Assembly: GCF_000172975.1 (NCBI RefSeq)
Contig: NZ_ABTR02000001.1
Span: forward strand, 248,001 to 312,000
Direction: 5' to 3'
From: Dethiosulfovibrio peptidovorans DSM 11002
GTDB lineage: Bacteria > Synergistota > Synergistia > Synergistales > Dethiosulfovibrionaceae
Length of the DNA stretch: 64,000 nt
Positions 30,833 to 44,666 of the stretch are shown here, in pieces (position 1 is the first letter of the stretch; each line of letters begins with the position of its first letter). Position numbers and translations under genes: made by a program. The notes beneath the pieces were generated by a model. The model searched no databases and was not told the origin of the DNA. It was given only the letters and a program-made list of their open reading frames with translations.

Positions 30833-31927
30833 CTAAGACCTCTTTTTACCGATCCCATAGACGAAGGCCAGTACCTCCGCCACAGATTTGTACAGCGTCT
30901 CGGGGATGGATTCGCCGACCTCCACGGAATCGTGGAGAGCCCAGGCCAGAGGCTTGTTTTCCACCACCGGCACGTCGTTTTCCTCGGCGATCTCTCTGAT
31001 TCTCCGCGCCAGTAACCCTTTTCCCTTGGCCAGAACCACCGGAGCGTCCATCTTTTCTCTATCGTATTGAAGGGCTATGGCCAATGTCGTCGGGTTGGTT
31101 ATGACCACGTCCGCCTGAGGAACGTCGGCCATCATCCTCTGCTTAGCCATCTCCCTCTGTTTCTGGCGGATCTTCTGTTTGATCTGAGGATCCCCTTCCA
31201 TCTGTTTGTATTCTTCTTTTATCTCCTGTTTGCTCATCTTTATGTTCTTCTCGAACTCCCATTTTTGGTAGGACCAGTCGAAGATCGCTATGACCAAAAG
31301 CAAAAAGGTCATCTTTACGCACAACAGCCATATTCGCCACAGCAAGAGGGACACGGCAGGACCGATGGGGTATCTTACGGCCATCACCATATCGGCGAGA
31401 TCCCCTCTCAGAGCGGAATAGAGAACTATAGCCAGTATAAGGGCCTTGAGGATCCCCTTTACCATCTCTACCAAGGACCTTAGGGATATGACCTTCTTGA
31501 GCCCCGATATAGGGTTGAACCTGTTCATCTTAGGGATCAGCGGCTTAGATGTCATAACGAAGCCGACCTGAGCCACAGAGACGAAAAAGGCGGCGAGAAA
31601 ACAGCCCACCACCATAGGGACTATGGCCAGACCGTAGGCCGATATGGACCTCATCGTCAGAGAGTGGAACCACCCGGTCCGCCCCAAGGTTCCATCTCCG
31701 ATAAAGAACAAGCACTCCCGGATAAAGGACAGTATAACGTCGAAGATCCACCCTCCGAACAGAATTACGGCTATTAAACCGGCTATTATGACAGCAGAGG
31801 CCCCCAGGTCCTGGCTCTTGGCGACTCGCCCCTCCTCCCGTTCCTTACGCCTCTTTCTGGGAGTGGCAGGTTCGGTCTTCTCTTCGGCGAAAAACTGGAG
31901 CCGAAACGATTTAAATATTAACGCCAT
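30833..31927 (-). CDS. flhB: Flagellar export switch protein FlhB, with NPTT in place of NPTH
   Basis: A 364-residue FlhB. An N-terminal FFAEEKTEPATPRKRRKERE segment leads to four membrane helices (about 35-220) and then the cytoplasmic domain. In most FlhB proteins this domain cleaves itself inside NPTH, switching export from hook to filament subunits. Here the motif reads NPTT (31085-31096), so the conserved histidine is replaced; the asparagine and proline are kept. The rest of the domain (YDREKMDAPVVLAKGKGL, PLAWALHDSVEVGESIP) is normal. The start is the ATG at 31927, overlapping fliR by 10 bases; a longer reading to 32176 lies inside fliR. Confidence 0.95.
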   Translation of the reverse strand: MALIFKSFRLQFFAEEKTEPATPRKRRKEREEGRVAKSQDLGASAVIIAGLIAVILFGGWIFDVILSFIRECLFFIGDGTLGRTGWFHSLTMRSISAYGLAIVPMVVGCFLAAFFVSVAQVGFVMTSKPLIPKMNRFNPISGLKKVISLRSLVEMVKGILKALILAIVLYSALRGDLADMVMAVRYPIGPAVSLLLWRIWLLCVKMTFLLLVIAIFDWSYQKWEFEKNIKMSKQEIKEEYKQMEGDPQIKQKIRQKQREMAKQRMMADVPQADVVITNPTTLAIALQYDREKMDAPVVLAKGKGLLARRIREIAEENDVPVVENKPLAWALHDSVEVGESIPETLYKSVAEVLAFVYGIGKKRS

Positions 31928-39009: not shown

Positions 39010-41637
39010 CTATCTCTTGAGGTTCAGAAGCTCCTCCAGAACGGAATCGCTGGTGGTGATGACCCTGGCGCTGGCCTGGAAACCTCTCTGGGTGGTTATA
39101 AGATCGGTGAACTCCTCGGTTATGTCGACGTTGCTGTACTCGAGAGAGCTTCCTGCTATGGTTCCCGCTCCTTCGACCATGGCGTTGACGATGGACGGAT
39201 CGCCGGAGTTTATCGATTTGGAGAAACAGGTGTTACCGGTTTTCACCAGCCCCTGGGGGTTGGCGAACATGGCAAGGGCCATCTTGTAGAGACCTCGATT
39301 CTGACCGTTGTCGTAGATCCCCACTATCGTTCCATCGTTGGAGACGGAGAAATCCTCCAATATCCCCATACTGTAACCGTTCTGAGTATAGGGTTTTGTG
39401 GTGAAGGCCGATCCGTACTGGGTAACTCCCTCTATCTCCTCTTTATCGAAAGACTTGCCGGAGAAGTCCAACACCACGTCGGCATCGTCGGCCCCTATGG
39501 CGGAGAAGCCTATGGAGATGGTGTTCTCGCCGCCAGAGAGCAGCTTACCCTCGGAGGAAAACCTTATGACTCCCTTGTTGTCCGAGAGTTTGAGCTCCGG
39601 TTCGTCCGGCAGGAAGGCCTCCCAGCTCCAGGCGTTGCTACCTACCTTTTTCCAGACAACCTCGAGGGTATGCTCGTTGCCGAGACTGTCATATATGGTG
39701 CCTTTGCCCTCGTGGACGCTGTCGGATCCCTCCCTTATCGAAGAGACGGGATCTCCACCGTCGGTTCCGTCGTAGGTGAAGATCAGCTTGGACGAATCGG
39801 TGGGAGAGGGCTTGATAGTGACATTCGCCCCGCCAGCGAAGCTGGAGGCAAACGTAGCCCCGGCACCACTAGCACTTGAATACTCGGAAGTAGCGGGAGC
39901 AAAGGTAACATCGCCAGCAGTGAGATCCATGTTAAAAGCCGTCATAACCCCCATATCGTTAGGTCCCCAGAGGGTAACAGTATCTCCATAATTACCGACG
40001 GTACCATCGCTGCTACTGTAATCGACCAGATATTGAGCTCCGTTTATCTCGGTGGTCTGGAAGTTGAAATCGCTGTAGGTCCATGTAGTCTTGCCTGTGT
40101 CCTCGTTCACGAGGGACAAAATCCCCTTCTCCGGGTTATAGACAACTTCGTGATCCTGAGCAATCACCGCAGTATCATCATCGGGATCCGAAGCAGATAA
40201 AGAAACGGTATCAGGACTCGGTTGAAGGATGACGTTACCGTCCTCGGAGACCCCTTTAAATGCCAGGTTTATCGTAGTACTTCCACCAATAACGCTATCG
40301 GCTAAGTCAAGTGTAATAAAATCGGAAATAGTAGTTCCCTCTTGAAATCTATAGGTTATATCAGCGGTAGCAGAGGTTCCATCTGTCGAAGTTACCGTGT
40401 AAGCAGGGGTAACGGTCGTATCTCCCTCTTTATTGACCCCGCTGTTGCTGGTGGCTGGTCCTATTATGGGGCTGACGTTACCCCGGAAGTTGAGGGCCTT
40501 GCCGGAGCTGTCTATCTCCAGGAAGAGGCTTACGGGATCGGGAAACTGGCTGTCCTCGCCGGTGGTCATCTTGAGGGTCGAGTCCGGGTCGAAGAGGCCG
40601 TCCTCGGTCTTGAGCACGTTCCACTGGAAGTAGTCTACCTGAGAATCACCGGAAGACTCCTCCTTTCCCTCTCCCCAGAGCCGCACCTGGGCCTTGTTGC
40701 CTATCTCGGTTATCTCCGCCAGATAGGTGTGGGTGGTTCCGGTGCTGTCGTCTATGCTTACGGCCTGATAGTTCATGTATGCGCTCATGGGGATGGAGGT
40801 TCCGTCTATGGAAAGCTCTCCCTTGGCGGCGTCGTAGTTTACGGTGTGGCCGGATGACCCCACAAGCTCCAGCTTGGGATAGTAGGTGGATTCGTCGTGG
40901 CTGCTCTGCTGCACTCCCTCAAAGCTGAAACGGAGGGTCTCGACGCTACCGTCGGCTTCGTTCTCCAGCCTTATGTTTATGAAGTCCGATACGTCCTCGC
41001 CTTCCGCCACGCTGATGGTGTACTCAGAGCCGAGTATCTCCGAGGAGAACTTGACCCCGTCGGGTATGCCGAGAGGAAGATAGGGATCCACCCGACTGTC
41101 CAGGTTGCACCTGTAGCCAACGGTCGAGGTGGCCTTGGCCTCCATTTTTCTACCTATGGGTATGTTTATGTCGCTGAGCTCCGAGCCGGTGGAGATCACT
41201 CCGTCCTCGTCAACGGTCATCTCGTTGCCCTGAACCCTGTAGCCGGTTCCGGACATGGCAAGGTCGGAGTTCGAGTCCAGCACGAACTGACCGGCCCTGG
41301 TGTAGAGGTTTTCTGCTCCGTTTCTTACGACGTAATACCCCTCGCCCTGGATGGCCATGTCTGTCCTGTTGCCGGTCTGGGACACGGTTCCCTGAGTGTG
41401 TATCGTCTCTATTCCGGCCACCTGAACACCTAAGCCTACCTGCTTTGCGTTGACCCCTCCCACGTTTCCGTCGGGAGCCATCGCTCCTCTCTCGGTCTGA
41501 GAGAGAAGGTCCTGAAATACCACGGTGGACTTCTTGAATCCAACGGTATTTACGTTGGCGATGTTGTTACCCACCACGTCCAGTCTTTTCTGGTGCGCCT
41601 TGGCACCGCTTACTCCGGTCAAGAGAGACCTCAACAT
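39010..41637 (-). CDS. flgE: Flagellar hook protein FlgE, enlarged by a duplicated domain
   Basis: An 875-residue hook protein, about twice the length of the enterobacterial one. The N-terminal D0 domain (DVVGNNIANVNTVGFKKS, 20-37), the D1 segment LYTRAGQFVLD and the C-terminal D0 (SNVDITEEFTDLITTQRGFQ) are conserved. The middle holds two domains that resemble each other: about 205-322 and 426-558. Shared marks are an EG..(V/I)SDFI start, an L.F.GV strand, a (V)NYD.AKGELS / VYNPEKGILS strand and a final (V)RLWG/TLWG. The second copy has lower G+C and different codon choice. ATG at 41637 after AAAGGAGG. Confidence 0.95.
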   Translation of the reverse strand: MLRSLLTGVSGAKAHQKRLDVVGNNIANVNTVGFKKSTVVFQDLLSQTERGAMAPDGNVGGVNAKQVGLGVQVAGIETIHTQGTVSQTGNRTDMAIQGEGYYVVRNGAENLYTRAGQFVLDSNSDLAMSGTGYRVQGNEMTVDEDGVISTGSELSDINIPIGRKMEAKATSTVGYRCNLDSRVDPYLPLGIPDGVKFSSEILGSEYTISVAEGEDVSDFINIRLENEADGSVETLRFSFEGVQQSSHDESTYYPKLELVGSSGHTVNYDAAKGELSIDGTSIPMSAYMNYQAVSIDDSTGTTHTYLAEITEIGNKAQVRLWGEGKEESSGDSQVDYFQWNVLKTEDGLFDPDSTLKMTTGEDSQFPDPVSLFLEIDSSGKALNFRGNVSPIIGPATSNSGVNKEGDTTVTPAYTVTSTDGTSATADITYRFQEGTTISDFITLDLADSVIGGSTTINLAFKGVSEDGNVILQPSPDTVSLSASDPDDDTAVIAQDHEVVYNPEKGILSLVNEDTGKTTWTYSDFNFQTTEINGAQYLVDYSSSDGTVGNYGDTVTLWGPNDMGVMTAFNMDLTAGDVTFAPATSEYSSASGAGATFASSFAGGANVTIKPSPTDSSKLIFTYDGTDGGDPVSSIREGSDSVHEGKGTIYDSLGNEHTLEVVWKKVGSNAWSWEAFLPDEPELKLSDNKGVIRFSSEGKLLSGGENTISIGFSAIGADDADVVLDFSGKSFDKEEIEGVTQYGSAFTTKPYTQNGYSMGILEDFSVSNDGTIVGIYDNGQNRGLYKMALAMFANPQGLVKTGNTCFSKSINSGDPSIVNAMVEGAGTIAGSSLEYSNVDITEEFTDLITTQRGFQASARVITTSDSVLEELLNLKR
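39964..40440 (-). other. Low-G+C segment inside flgE
   Basis: By hand count, 40141-40380 has 108 G or C in 240 bases (45%), while 40501-40560, also in flgE, has 37 in 60 (62%). The segment encodes the second copy of the duplicated hook domain and the stretch before it. Codons such as GTA, ACA, GCA and TCA are more frequent than in the flanks. It looks like a replaced or acquired surface domain. Confidence 0.6.
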
Positions 41638-42236: not shown

Positions 42237-44654
42237 TTAGGCGTACCACTGGAGCATCCCTCGCTCCAGGTCTATCCGGGCTACAGTCACTATAGACTCC
42301 TCCGGAACATCGTCGTCCTCATCTGTCCTTCCTCTTCTGCCCTTGACGGACTGTATCGAGTCTCTCCAGGGAGAACGTCTGTCGTCTCCCTGACGAACGT
42401 CGACGTTTACCGACGAGGCGCTGATTCCCTGCTGGGCCAGCATGTCCTGGAGAAGGGGTATCTGAGGCTTTATCATGTCCCTGACCTGGACGCTGTCGAC
42501 CTTGAAAGAGGCCTCCATCCCCGACGGGGTTACGTGAACCTCCACCTCTACTCTGCCCAAGGCAGGAGGGTCGACCACTATGGAGGCTCTCTGGGTGCCG
42601 TCCGAAGCGACCTGCCTCACCACCTGTGCCAATCCCTGGGGCAAAATTTCAGGACCTCTGCCCGGGAGGGGAACGTTGCGTGTAGCCGTTTGAACGTTGG
42701 TTCCGGCAGTTCGAGAGCTGCCAGGGCCGTTCAGTTCCCCGGCTGAGCGCAGCGATGGATCGACTCCCTGATCCTTACCTGTGTCCTCTTTGCCGTAGGA
42801 TCTCATGTCGTTTTGGGCGATAGGTTCCTTTTCGTTTTTATCGGTCGACTTCGAGATACCCTCTGAATTTTTTTCGGCGATTTCAGCCTCGTCCTGTACC
42901 ATCGGCAGAGAGTTTTCTTCGTCTTTTTTGACGTACGATAGCTGATCCTTCCGGTCGGAGTCCTCAGGAGACCAGCTGGAGGCAAACAGTGCGTTCGGAC
43001 CGGCGTTTTTTTCCGTCTCCGGCTTTTGCGACTCCGTGTCGATCGTGACGACATCTTTCGACGTATCCGAAGGGGCATCGGTCGACTTCGGCTTCGAAGC
43101 TGCCTCCGGAGACCGCTGAACCGGCTCGGCGGTCTTTGCGGCAACATCTCCATCGACCCAAGTCCGGACTGTTCCGGAGGTGTTTTTTTCCGGCTTCGCA
43201 ATCTCGGAAGCCACGGCCTGGGGCCCCTGCGTTTCTGGCCCTGCCGGAGGTGCTACGTCGGCCCTTTTAGATGTTGCCGTCTCGAATCCGGTATCGCTGG
43301 AAGTCCAAGTTCCCGGTTGTTCCATGGATACGACCTCAGCTTTACCCGAACCGAGAGGCGATCCAGCTGAAACTGTAGCTCCCTCCGCCTTCCTTGAGAC
43401 GGTTCCGTCGACTTTTGGATTTTCCCTCTGGCTCTGGACCGAAATCTCTGGTTTCTCGGCTACGACGGAGGAAGCGTAACCACCGTCTGCCGCTTTTTCT
43501 GTACGTGCAGCCTTAACGGTCTCATAAGCCACCGTCTCGGAAGCCACGGTCTGGGTAGACTGCGTTTCTGGCCCTGCCGGAGGTGCTACGTCGGCCCTTT
43601 TAAGTGTTGCCATCTCGAATCCGGCATCGCTGGAGGTCCCAGTTCCTGATTGTTGCCTAGATACGACCTCCGTTTTACCCGAACCGAGAGGCGATCCAGC
43701 TGAAACGGTAGCGCCCTCCGTCTTCCTTGAGACGGTTCCATCGACTTTTGGATTTCCCCTCTGGCTCTGGACCGAAATCTCTGGTTTCTCGGCTACGACG
43801 GAGGAAGCGTAACCACCGTCTGCCGCTTTAAAGAAAGAGAAAACTTGAGTTCGGGGCTCCGCTGTTTCCGGAGCTACGGTCTGAGACGTTACGGTTTCAG
43901 AACTTACCTTGCCATCGACCAGAGTCCGGACTGCGCCGGAGGTGGCTTCTTCCAGCTTGGCAGTTTCGGAGACCACTTCCTTGGTGCCCTGCGTTTCTGC
44001 TCCTGCCGGAGGTGCTACGTCGGGCTGACTTTGAACCGCACCGAAAGAGGGTCCTTCCACTTTTGAAGTTTCCATCAAGGCTTGGACTGGAGCCATTGGC
44101 TTCGCCGTTTCCGTAGTCTCTACCTGGTGGGGTTGCTTTTCGGACGGAACGTCGGCCTTCGACACGGACAGGTCTAGGTCTATTTTCGGAATGCTCTTTA
44201 AGGGACCGAGAGGGCCTATGAGGTCGTTTAAAAGGGCGTCCACGTTTTCCAAGACGAAGGCGTCGTCCTTCTCGCCATCCAGAACCTCTTCTGTGGCACC
44301 ATCCGAAGCTACCTGGGAAACAGAAGGTTCCGCCTGGGTTATGACCAGGGAACCGACGTTTTTTCCGGTGGGGTCGACGAAGGACGGTATGTTTAGGCGG
44401 TTTTCCCCTCTGGAGTAGGAGTCCAGTTGACCTACTACCTCCGACACGGAGGCGGCGGTCGATCCGACGTCTTCGCCGCCGGGTTTCATCGACGGTATCG
44501 AGTCCTCTCGATATAGAAGCTCCTCGAACTTGCCGGTGTCTTCCGACGAGGAGTTTTTCGTCACACCGAAAGAAAGGACCTCCGACTTGACGGAGCTTTT
44601 CGGAGGATCGCCTCTTTTGGATGACTGAAACAGGTTTTCGGCACCGATAAGCAT
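42237..44654 (-). CDS. fliK: Hook-length control protein FliK, enlarged by repeats
   Basis: A protein of about 805 residues. The last 150 residues hold the FliK_C domain (RASIVVDPPALGRVEVEVHV, then MKASFKV-like strands and QQGISASSVNVDVRQG), which contacts FlhB to switch export specificity. The long N-terminal part acts as a ruler in known FliK proteins. Here it is low-complexity and contains repeated blocks, so the ruler is unusually long. The ATG at 44654 has GGTGA upstream; a GTG at 44666 is an alternative. It lies between the MotE-like gene and flgD. Confidence 0.9.
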   Translation of the reverse strand: MLIGAENLFQSSKRGDPPKSSVKSEVLSFGVTKNSSSEDTGKFEELLYREDSIPSMKPGGEDVGSTAASVSEVVGQLDSYSRGENRLNIPSFVDPTGKNVGSLVITQAEPSVSQVASDGATEEVLDGEKDDAFVLENVDALLNDLIGPLGPLKSIPKIDLDLSVSKADVPSEKQPHQVETTETAKPMAPVQALMETSKVEGPSFGAVQSQPDVAPPAGAETQGTKEVVSETAKLEEATSGAVRTLVDGKVSSETVTSQTVAPETAEPRTQVFSFFKAADGGYASSVVAEKPEISVQSQRGNPKVDGTVSRKTEGATVSAGSPLGSGKTEVVSRQQSGTGTSSDAGFEMATLKRADVAPPAGPETQSTQTVASETVAYETVKAARTEKAADGGYASSVVAEKPEISVQSQRENPKVDGTVSRKAEGATVSAGSPLGSGKAEVVSMEQPGTWTSSDTGFETATSKRADVAPPAGPETQGPQAVASEIAKPEKNTSGTVRTWVDGDVAAKTAEPVQRSPEAASKPKSTDAPSDTSKDVVTIDTESQKPETEKNAGPNALFASSWSPEDSDRKDQLSYVKKDEENSLPMVQDEAEIAEKNSEGISKSTDKNEKEPIAQNDMRSYGKEDTGKDQGVDPSLRSAGELNGPGSSRTAGTNVQTATRNVPLPGRGPEILPQGLAQVVRQVASDGTQRASIVVDPPALGRVEVEVHVTPSGMEASFKVDSVQVRDMIKPQIPLLQDMLAQQGISASSVNVDVRQGDDRRSPWRDSIQSVKGRRGRTDEDDDVPEESIVTVARIDLERGMLQWYA
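43203..43829 (-). repeat. Tandem duplication within fliK, period 333 bases
   Basis: Two blocks of about 294 bases (roughly 43203-43496 and 43536-43829) are near-identical and lie 333 bases (111 codons) apart. Both encode the order GGYASSVVAEKPEISVQSQR, NPKVDGTVSRK, EGATVSAGSPLGSGK and RADVAPPAGPETQ. A shorter third copy of the DVAPPAG block lies 429 bases (143 codons) further, at 44003. All offsets are multiples of three, so the reading frame is kept. Confidence 0.88.
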
Positions 44655-44666
44655 AGCCTGATTCAC

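Follow-up and report, generated by a model that had tools for sequence, protein, structure and literature searches.

The window, a 64,000-nucleotide stretch of the Dethiosulfovibrio peptidovorans DSM 11002 genome, carries a flhB gene in which the autocleavage motif, usually NPTH, reads NPTT, together with the genes of the hook-length protein FliK and of the hook protein FlgE (Table 1). The four motif residues are encoded by AACCCGACGACA (AAC CCG ACG ACA, Asn-Pro-Thr-Thr). The preliminary description of this DNA had placed and read the motif exactly, was right in stating that FlhB is cut between the Asn and the Pro, and is borne out by the ACA codon of Thr281 in its claim that the His is replaced by Thr. 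The C-terminal half of the protein is predicted to begin at Pro279 because the second chain of the solved, cleaved homologues begins at the same Pro.

Table 1. Positions of the flhB, flgE and fliK features within the 64,000-nucleotide window.
Feature	Position	Strand	Description and basis
flhB	30833..31927	minus	364 aa, flagellar export-gate switch protein; TIGR00328 389.1 bits, full-length PF01312
NPTT autocleavage motif, Asn278-Pro279-Thr280-Thr281	31085..31096	minus	sequence; predicted cut Asn278/Pro279
Thr281 codon ACA, place of the usual His	31085..31087	minus	sequence
Predicted FlhB-CC half, Pro279 to C-terminus	30836..31093	minus	inferred from motif position and cleaved solved homologues
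flgE	39010..41637	minus	hook protein, 875 aa; Flg_bb_rod, FlgE_D2 and Flg_bbr_C domains
fliK	42237..44666	minus	hook-length protein, switch partner, 809 aa; Flg_hook domain at residues 684-762

The TIGR00328 score lies above the cut-off of this NCBI equivalog model (349.25), and the Pfam family PF01312 is matched with 423.3 bits (cut-off 24.4) over all 335 positions of its profile (1-335). The FliR-FlhB fusion model NF009411 (339 bits, under the cut-off of 739) and the SctU injectisome model TIGR01404 (318 bits, under the cut-off of 358) were both rejected for this protein. The literal four-letter NPTH signature is absent from it, as Thr occupies place 4. The genome (2,576,359 bases in 3 contigs) contains one full-length FlhB and one small paralogue resembling the C-terminal half, FlhB-C. 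The start of flhB is overlapped by 10 bases (window 31918-31927) by a frame that, from its position, we take to be fliR-like.

Two further observations concern the hook genes. In FlgE, the D1 and D2 domains are separated by long stretches without a domain match. Internal direct repeats are present in fliK (window 43150-44023), comprising two copies of 295 nt with 92% identity, spaced 333 nt, as well as three copies of a 112-nt unit, and these repeats are a possible source of change in ruler length.

Structure of the NPTT-bearing domain

A model of the FlhB cytoplasmic domain built with 109 aligned sequences presents a mean pLDDT of 88.1; omitting the alignment gave a poor model (pLDDT 48.8), which was not used. 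In model numbering, one β-strand extends over residues 65-69 and ends in Asn, while the next comprises residues 73-78, such that the NPTT turn is predicted to lie between β1 and β2. The top Foldseek matches of the domain model are the solved domains of FlhB, YscU and EscU, the best being Shewanella FlhB (PDB code 6z0w; E-value of 4.2e-12). The LARxLY helix, conserved in the family and located under the motif loop, reads LAWALH here (window 30932-30952, FlhB residues 326-332), and in the alignment its Arg is exchanged for Trp in 74/124 Synergistota rows and in 1/155 outside rows among the matches listed. The rest of the domain had been called normal, which holds for its fold and family and fails for this helix.

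Residues at the fourth place of the motif

NPTT was found in all seven genomes of the genus, with the Thr codons ACA, ACT and ACC. Since the seven genomes agree in NPTT and differ in the Thr codons, the residue has been retained through drift of its codon, and to judge from these genomes Thr is the fixed form at place 4 in the genus. No His codon occurs there, which confirms NPTT as real. The same uniformity with varied codons refutes the reading that NPTT is a sequencing or assembly error, a reading for which no support was found and to which we give practically no credence.

Matches to PF01312 were obtained in 134 of 185 Synergistota genomes, and the motif could be read in 123; the other 11 were dropped because their motif region was unreadable (paralogue only, or fragment). 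Place 4 is occupied by His in 66 of the 123 genomes and by Thr (32), Arg (14), Met (6), Gln (2), Phe (2) or Leu (1) in the remaining 57, and members lacking the His are present in 32 of 39 genera. NPTT is thus a common form within the Synergistota. Place 3 is variable as well, with NPVM (4 genomes, one family), NPVF, NPVH and NPSH all occurring in the phylum. In family f11 (L078, L089, L059 and L104) all four FlhBs read NPVM, both places being altered, and a genome that is probably Aminomonas paucivorans (G121:C1, locus L027), a species described without flagella, still encodes NPTH. Variation at place 3 is already visible in the PDB, which holds solved FlhBs with NPEH, presumably including that of Vibrio.

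Two samples were drawn from outside the phylum. The first was retrieved with a DNA pattern lying ~35-40 codons upstream of the motif and comprises at least 116 named loci, mainly from Bacillota and Proteobacteria. Among the matches listed, 115 of 116 FlhB/SctU loci have His at place 4, the sole other form being NPTE in an Acidobacteria MAG. Because 115 of these 116 listed proteins keep it, the His is under selection in the lineages dominated by Bacillota and Proteobacteria. The second sample consists of FlhBs from genomes labelled “same domain”, represented by the best-scoring 40 of the 88 genomes with a match, a selection whose bias, if any, is towards His; here His was found in 27 proteins, and the 13 others contain Arg (4), Glu (3), Phe (3), Ser (1), Leu (1) or Thr (1). 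The motifs of L126 and L260, both missed by the pattern reading of the rows, were read by eye. Across the whole alignment, H, T, R, M, F, E, Q, L and S occur at place 4, and Asn-Pro is present in 281/281 sequences (Synergistota, the best 40 of 88, and the outside loci among the matches listed). On these counts, the common phyla almost always have His at place 4, whereas several deep lineages vary there.

The comparison of FlhB across many synergistetes that the preliminary description had proposed therefore reveals a His absent from 57/123 genomes and an Asn-Pro pair that is never lost. The Thr had been presented as a peculiarity of this cell, a view left unsupported by these genomes and by the 13/40 non-His FlhBs of other deep lineages. 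Given the same proteins, we do not count His at place 4 as a defining character of FlhB.

The history of the exchange was followed in two trees that omit three short fragments from Synergistota and a single short row from outside the phylum, and that retain the motif column (one column among more than 300). In the maximum-likelihood tree of 121 Synergistota FlhBs, parsimony requires no fewer than 11 transitions between His and non-His and 20 residue changes; in a tree of 275 FlhBs, with outside rows among the matches listed, the corresponding values are at least 22 and 33. These reconstructions indicate that the exchange of His is recurrent and not one old event. In raw counts that ignore kinship, the residue 26 positions after the Asn is Asp in 49/68 His rows vs 7/56 non-His rows of the Synergistota, and in 100/141 vs 0/14 rows elsewhere (among the matches listed). 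This covariation was rejected, as it disappears in an independent-pairs test (median p of 1 in Synergistota and 0.5 overall, with few differing pairs). The residue following the motif likewise showed no association with the His state (median p of 1 in the 275-FlhB tree, with few differing pairs), and no FlhB marker that follows the His change was found by this test, in which few pairs differ, after correction for kinship.

Probable cleavage and switching by the NPTT protein

In homologues, cutting proceeds by Asn cyclisation in the β1-β2 turn, after which the PTH loop flips, leaving its side chains exposed (PMC2615192), and in flagellar FlhB this loop is described as flexible (PMC3640470). Substitutions in Xanthomonas HrcU separate the four residues, N264A blocking cleavage and P265A nearly so, whereas the T266A and H267A proteins do undergo cleavage, leave more uncut protein and complement only partially (PMC3040844). 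Place 4 is thus not neutral in the HrcU system, given the surplus of uncut H267A protein and its partial complementation. The PDB entries of EscU H265A (3bzx) and T264A (3bzv) include a C-terminal chain of 83 residues whose alignment starts at the Pro, as in native EscU (3bzl), and from these chain lengths we read EscU H265A as cleaved in its crystal. Entries of N262A, N262D and P263A comprise a 137-residue uncut chain, the P263A entry 3c03 holding both kinds. It has been shown by others, in homologues, that cutting requires Asn and Pro and does not strictly require His.

The NPTT protein is very probably an ordinary FlhB that cleaves itself and, with FliK, switches export, its place 4 having no part in catalysis. 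Asn278 would attack its own main chain by Asn cyclisation and break the Asn278-Pro279 bond in the β1-β2 turn; the two halves would stay associated and, jointly with FliK, change export from hook to filament proteins. The fourth residue, presumed non-catalytic, would lie at the exposed tip of the P-T-x loop as it flips, a position that may accept many residues and at which they have often been exchanged for one another. The type strain SEBR 4207T is reported to be motile via lateral flagella (PMC3035263), an observation on the strain that is not experimentally tied to the NPTT allele; as the strain is flagellated and motile, hook-to-filament switching evidently happens in it. In Salmonella it is established that filament protein is normally not exportable before the switch. 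Since a filament needs the switch and the only full FlhB of this flagellated strain is the NPTT form, these data speak for a working switch. The free variation of place 4 across the phylum and several others likewise makes it most likely that this is a working, near-ordinary variant and not an altered switch. The open literature searched yielded no cleavage assay of any FlhB that naturally lacks the His.

A different view is that loss of the His slows self-cleavage and shifts the timing of the hook-to-filament transition, the long FliK ruler and the large hook being tuned to the delay. The 809 residues of FliK and the 875 of FlgE agree with it, as does the larger uncleaved fraction and partial complementation of HrcU H267A (PMC3040844). 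Against it stand the many independent origins of non-His forms (at least 11 changes in Synergistota and at least 22 overall) and the lack of any FlhB marker that follows the change when kinship is considered, few pairs differing, and we judge this adaptation unlikely. The earlier suggestion that cleavage rate or switching may differ is accordingly retained for a small change in rate, which HrcU H267A makes possible (PMC3040844), and is opposed, as regards an altered switch, by the flagella and motility of the strain.

Cleavage might also be dispensable if a paralogue of the FlhX/YlqH type supplied the C-terminal half already cut. Such a paralogue does exist in this genome (L002, C1:318960-319232, outside the window); it comprises 91 aa without an NPxx motif, and its PF01312 match starts at position 262. 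In Xanthomonas the fragment HrcU 265-357 is functional in trans, and the same source (PMC3040844) cites a comparable result for Helicobacter pylori. Furthermore, the five genomes of families f2, f7 and f10 that lack the paralogue all have His. The paralogue is present, however, in 111 of the 123 Synergistota genomes with a readable FlhB, comprising 57/66 His and 54/57 non-His genomes, and so does not track the His change; for want of any such association it was rejected as a substitute for cleavage. Where it is missing from non-His genomes (three cases), the assemblies are incomplete or contaminated. In other lineages (best 40 of 88, tallied by eye) a single PF01312 match was found in 4/13 non-His and 8/27 His genomes, and the invariance of Asn-Pro in non-His proteins is unexpected if cleavage is dispensable. 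Replacement of cleavage by the paralogue thus appears very improbable.

Near the paralogue lie a frame resembling fliK, whose Flg_hook match of 26.3 bits falls below the cut-off of 29.8, and RNase HII, UPF0102 and Mg-chelatase/ComM-like genes, a neighbourhood that we take to resemble the Bacillus ylqG-ylqH locus near rnhB. G013, G016, G061 and similar Synergistota contain the small paralogue and have no full FlhB match, as if the paralogue had outlived the flagellum in them.

Taken as a near-ordinary FlhB, the NPTT protein most likely cleaves and switches at most somewhat more slowly than usual, and for the D. peptidovorans genome this means that the flagellar switch is probably normal. The aligned proteins portray the motif as NP followed by a tail that varies; Asn-Pro alone is fixed, and the His has been exchanged many times in flagellated lineages. 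NPTH is called strictly conserved in one account (PMC2615192) and conserved in all known members in another (PMC4875606), and no description of natural non-His FlhB motifs was found in the open literature searched, the Chlamydia homologue included. The novelty is nevertheless modest, this being a variant of a known protein. More tentatively, and with some doubt, place 4 in the Synergistota and other deep lineages may have been freed from the constraint that fixes the His elsewhere, a constraint of contact with FliK or substrate on the flipped PTx loop and not of catalysis. If so, switch timing is possibly altered, and the natural NPTT, NPTR, NPTM, NPTE and NPVF forms constitute a ready-made panel in which cleavage chemistry can be told apart from switch recognition. 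Such natural variants make it possible to study the role of the His after cleavage, a question that models of the switch have long left unanswered.

Comparison with known systems

The protein of the window and Salmonella FlhB (NPTH, cut at Asn269-Pro270) belong to the same family and length class and share the Asn-Pro in the β1-β2 turn as well as their role; they differ at place 4, which is His in Salmonella and Thr here. EscU H265A (3bzx) and HrcU H267A resemble it in having a place 4 without His, the EscU chain beginning at the Pro and HrcU being cleaved. This contrasts with the present case in that both carry an engineered Ala in injectisome proteins, while the window FlhB has a natural Thr in a flagellar one. 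Within the Synergistota, Thermanaerovibrio velox, motile by lateral flagella (PMC3910556), also possesses an FlhB with an altered motif tail, although in its NPVH place 3 is changed and the His is kept, in contrast to the NPTT described here.
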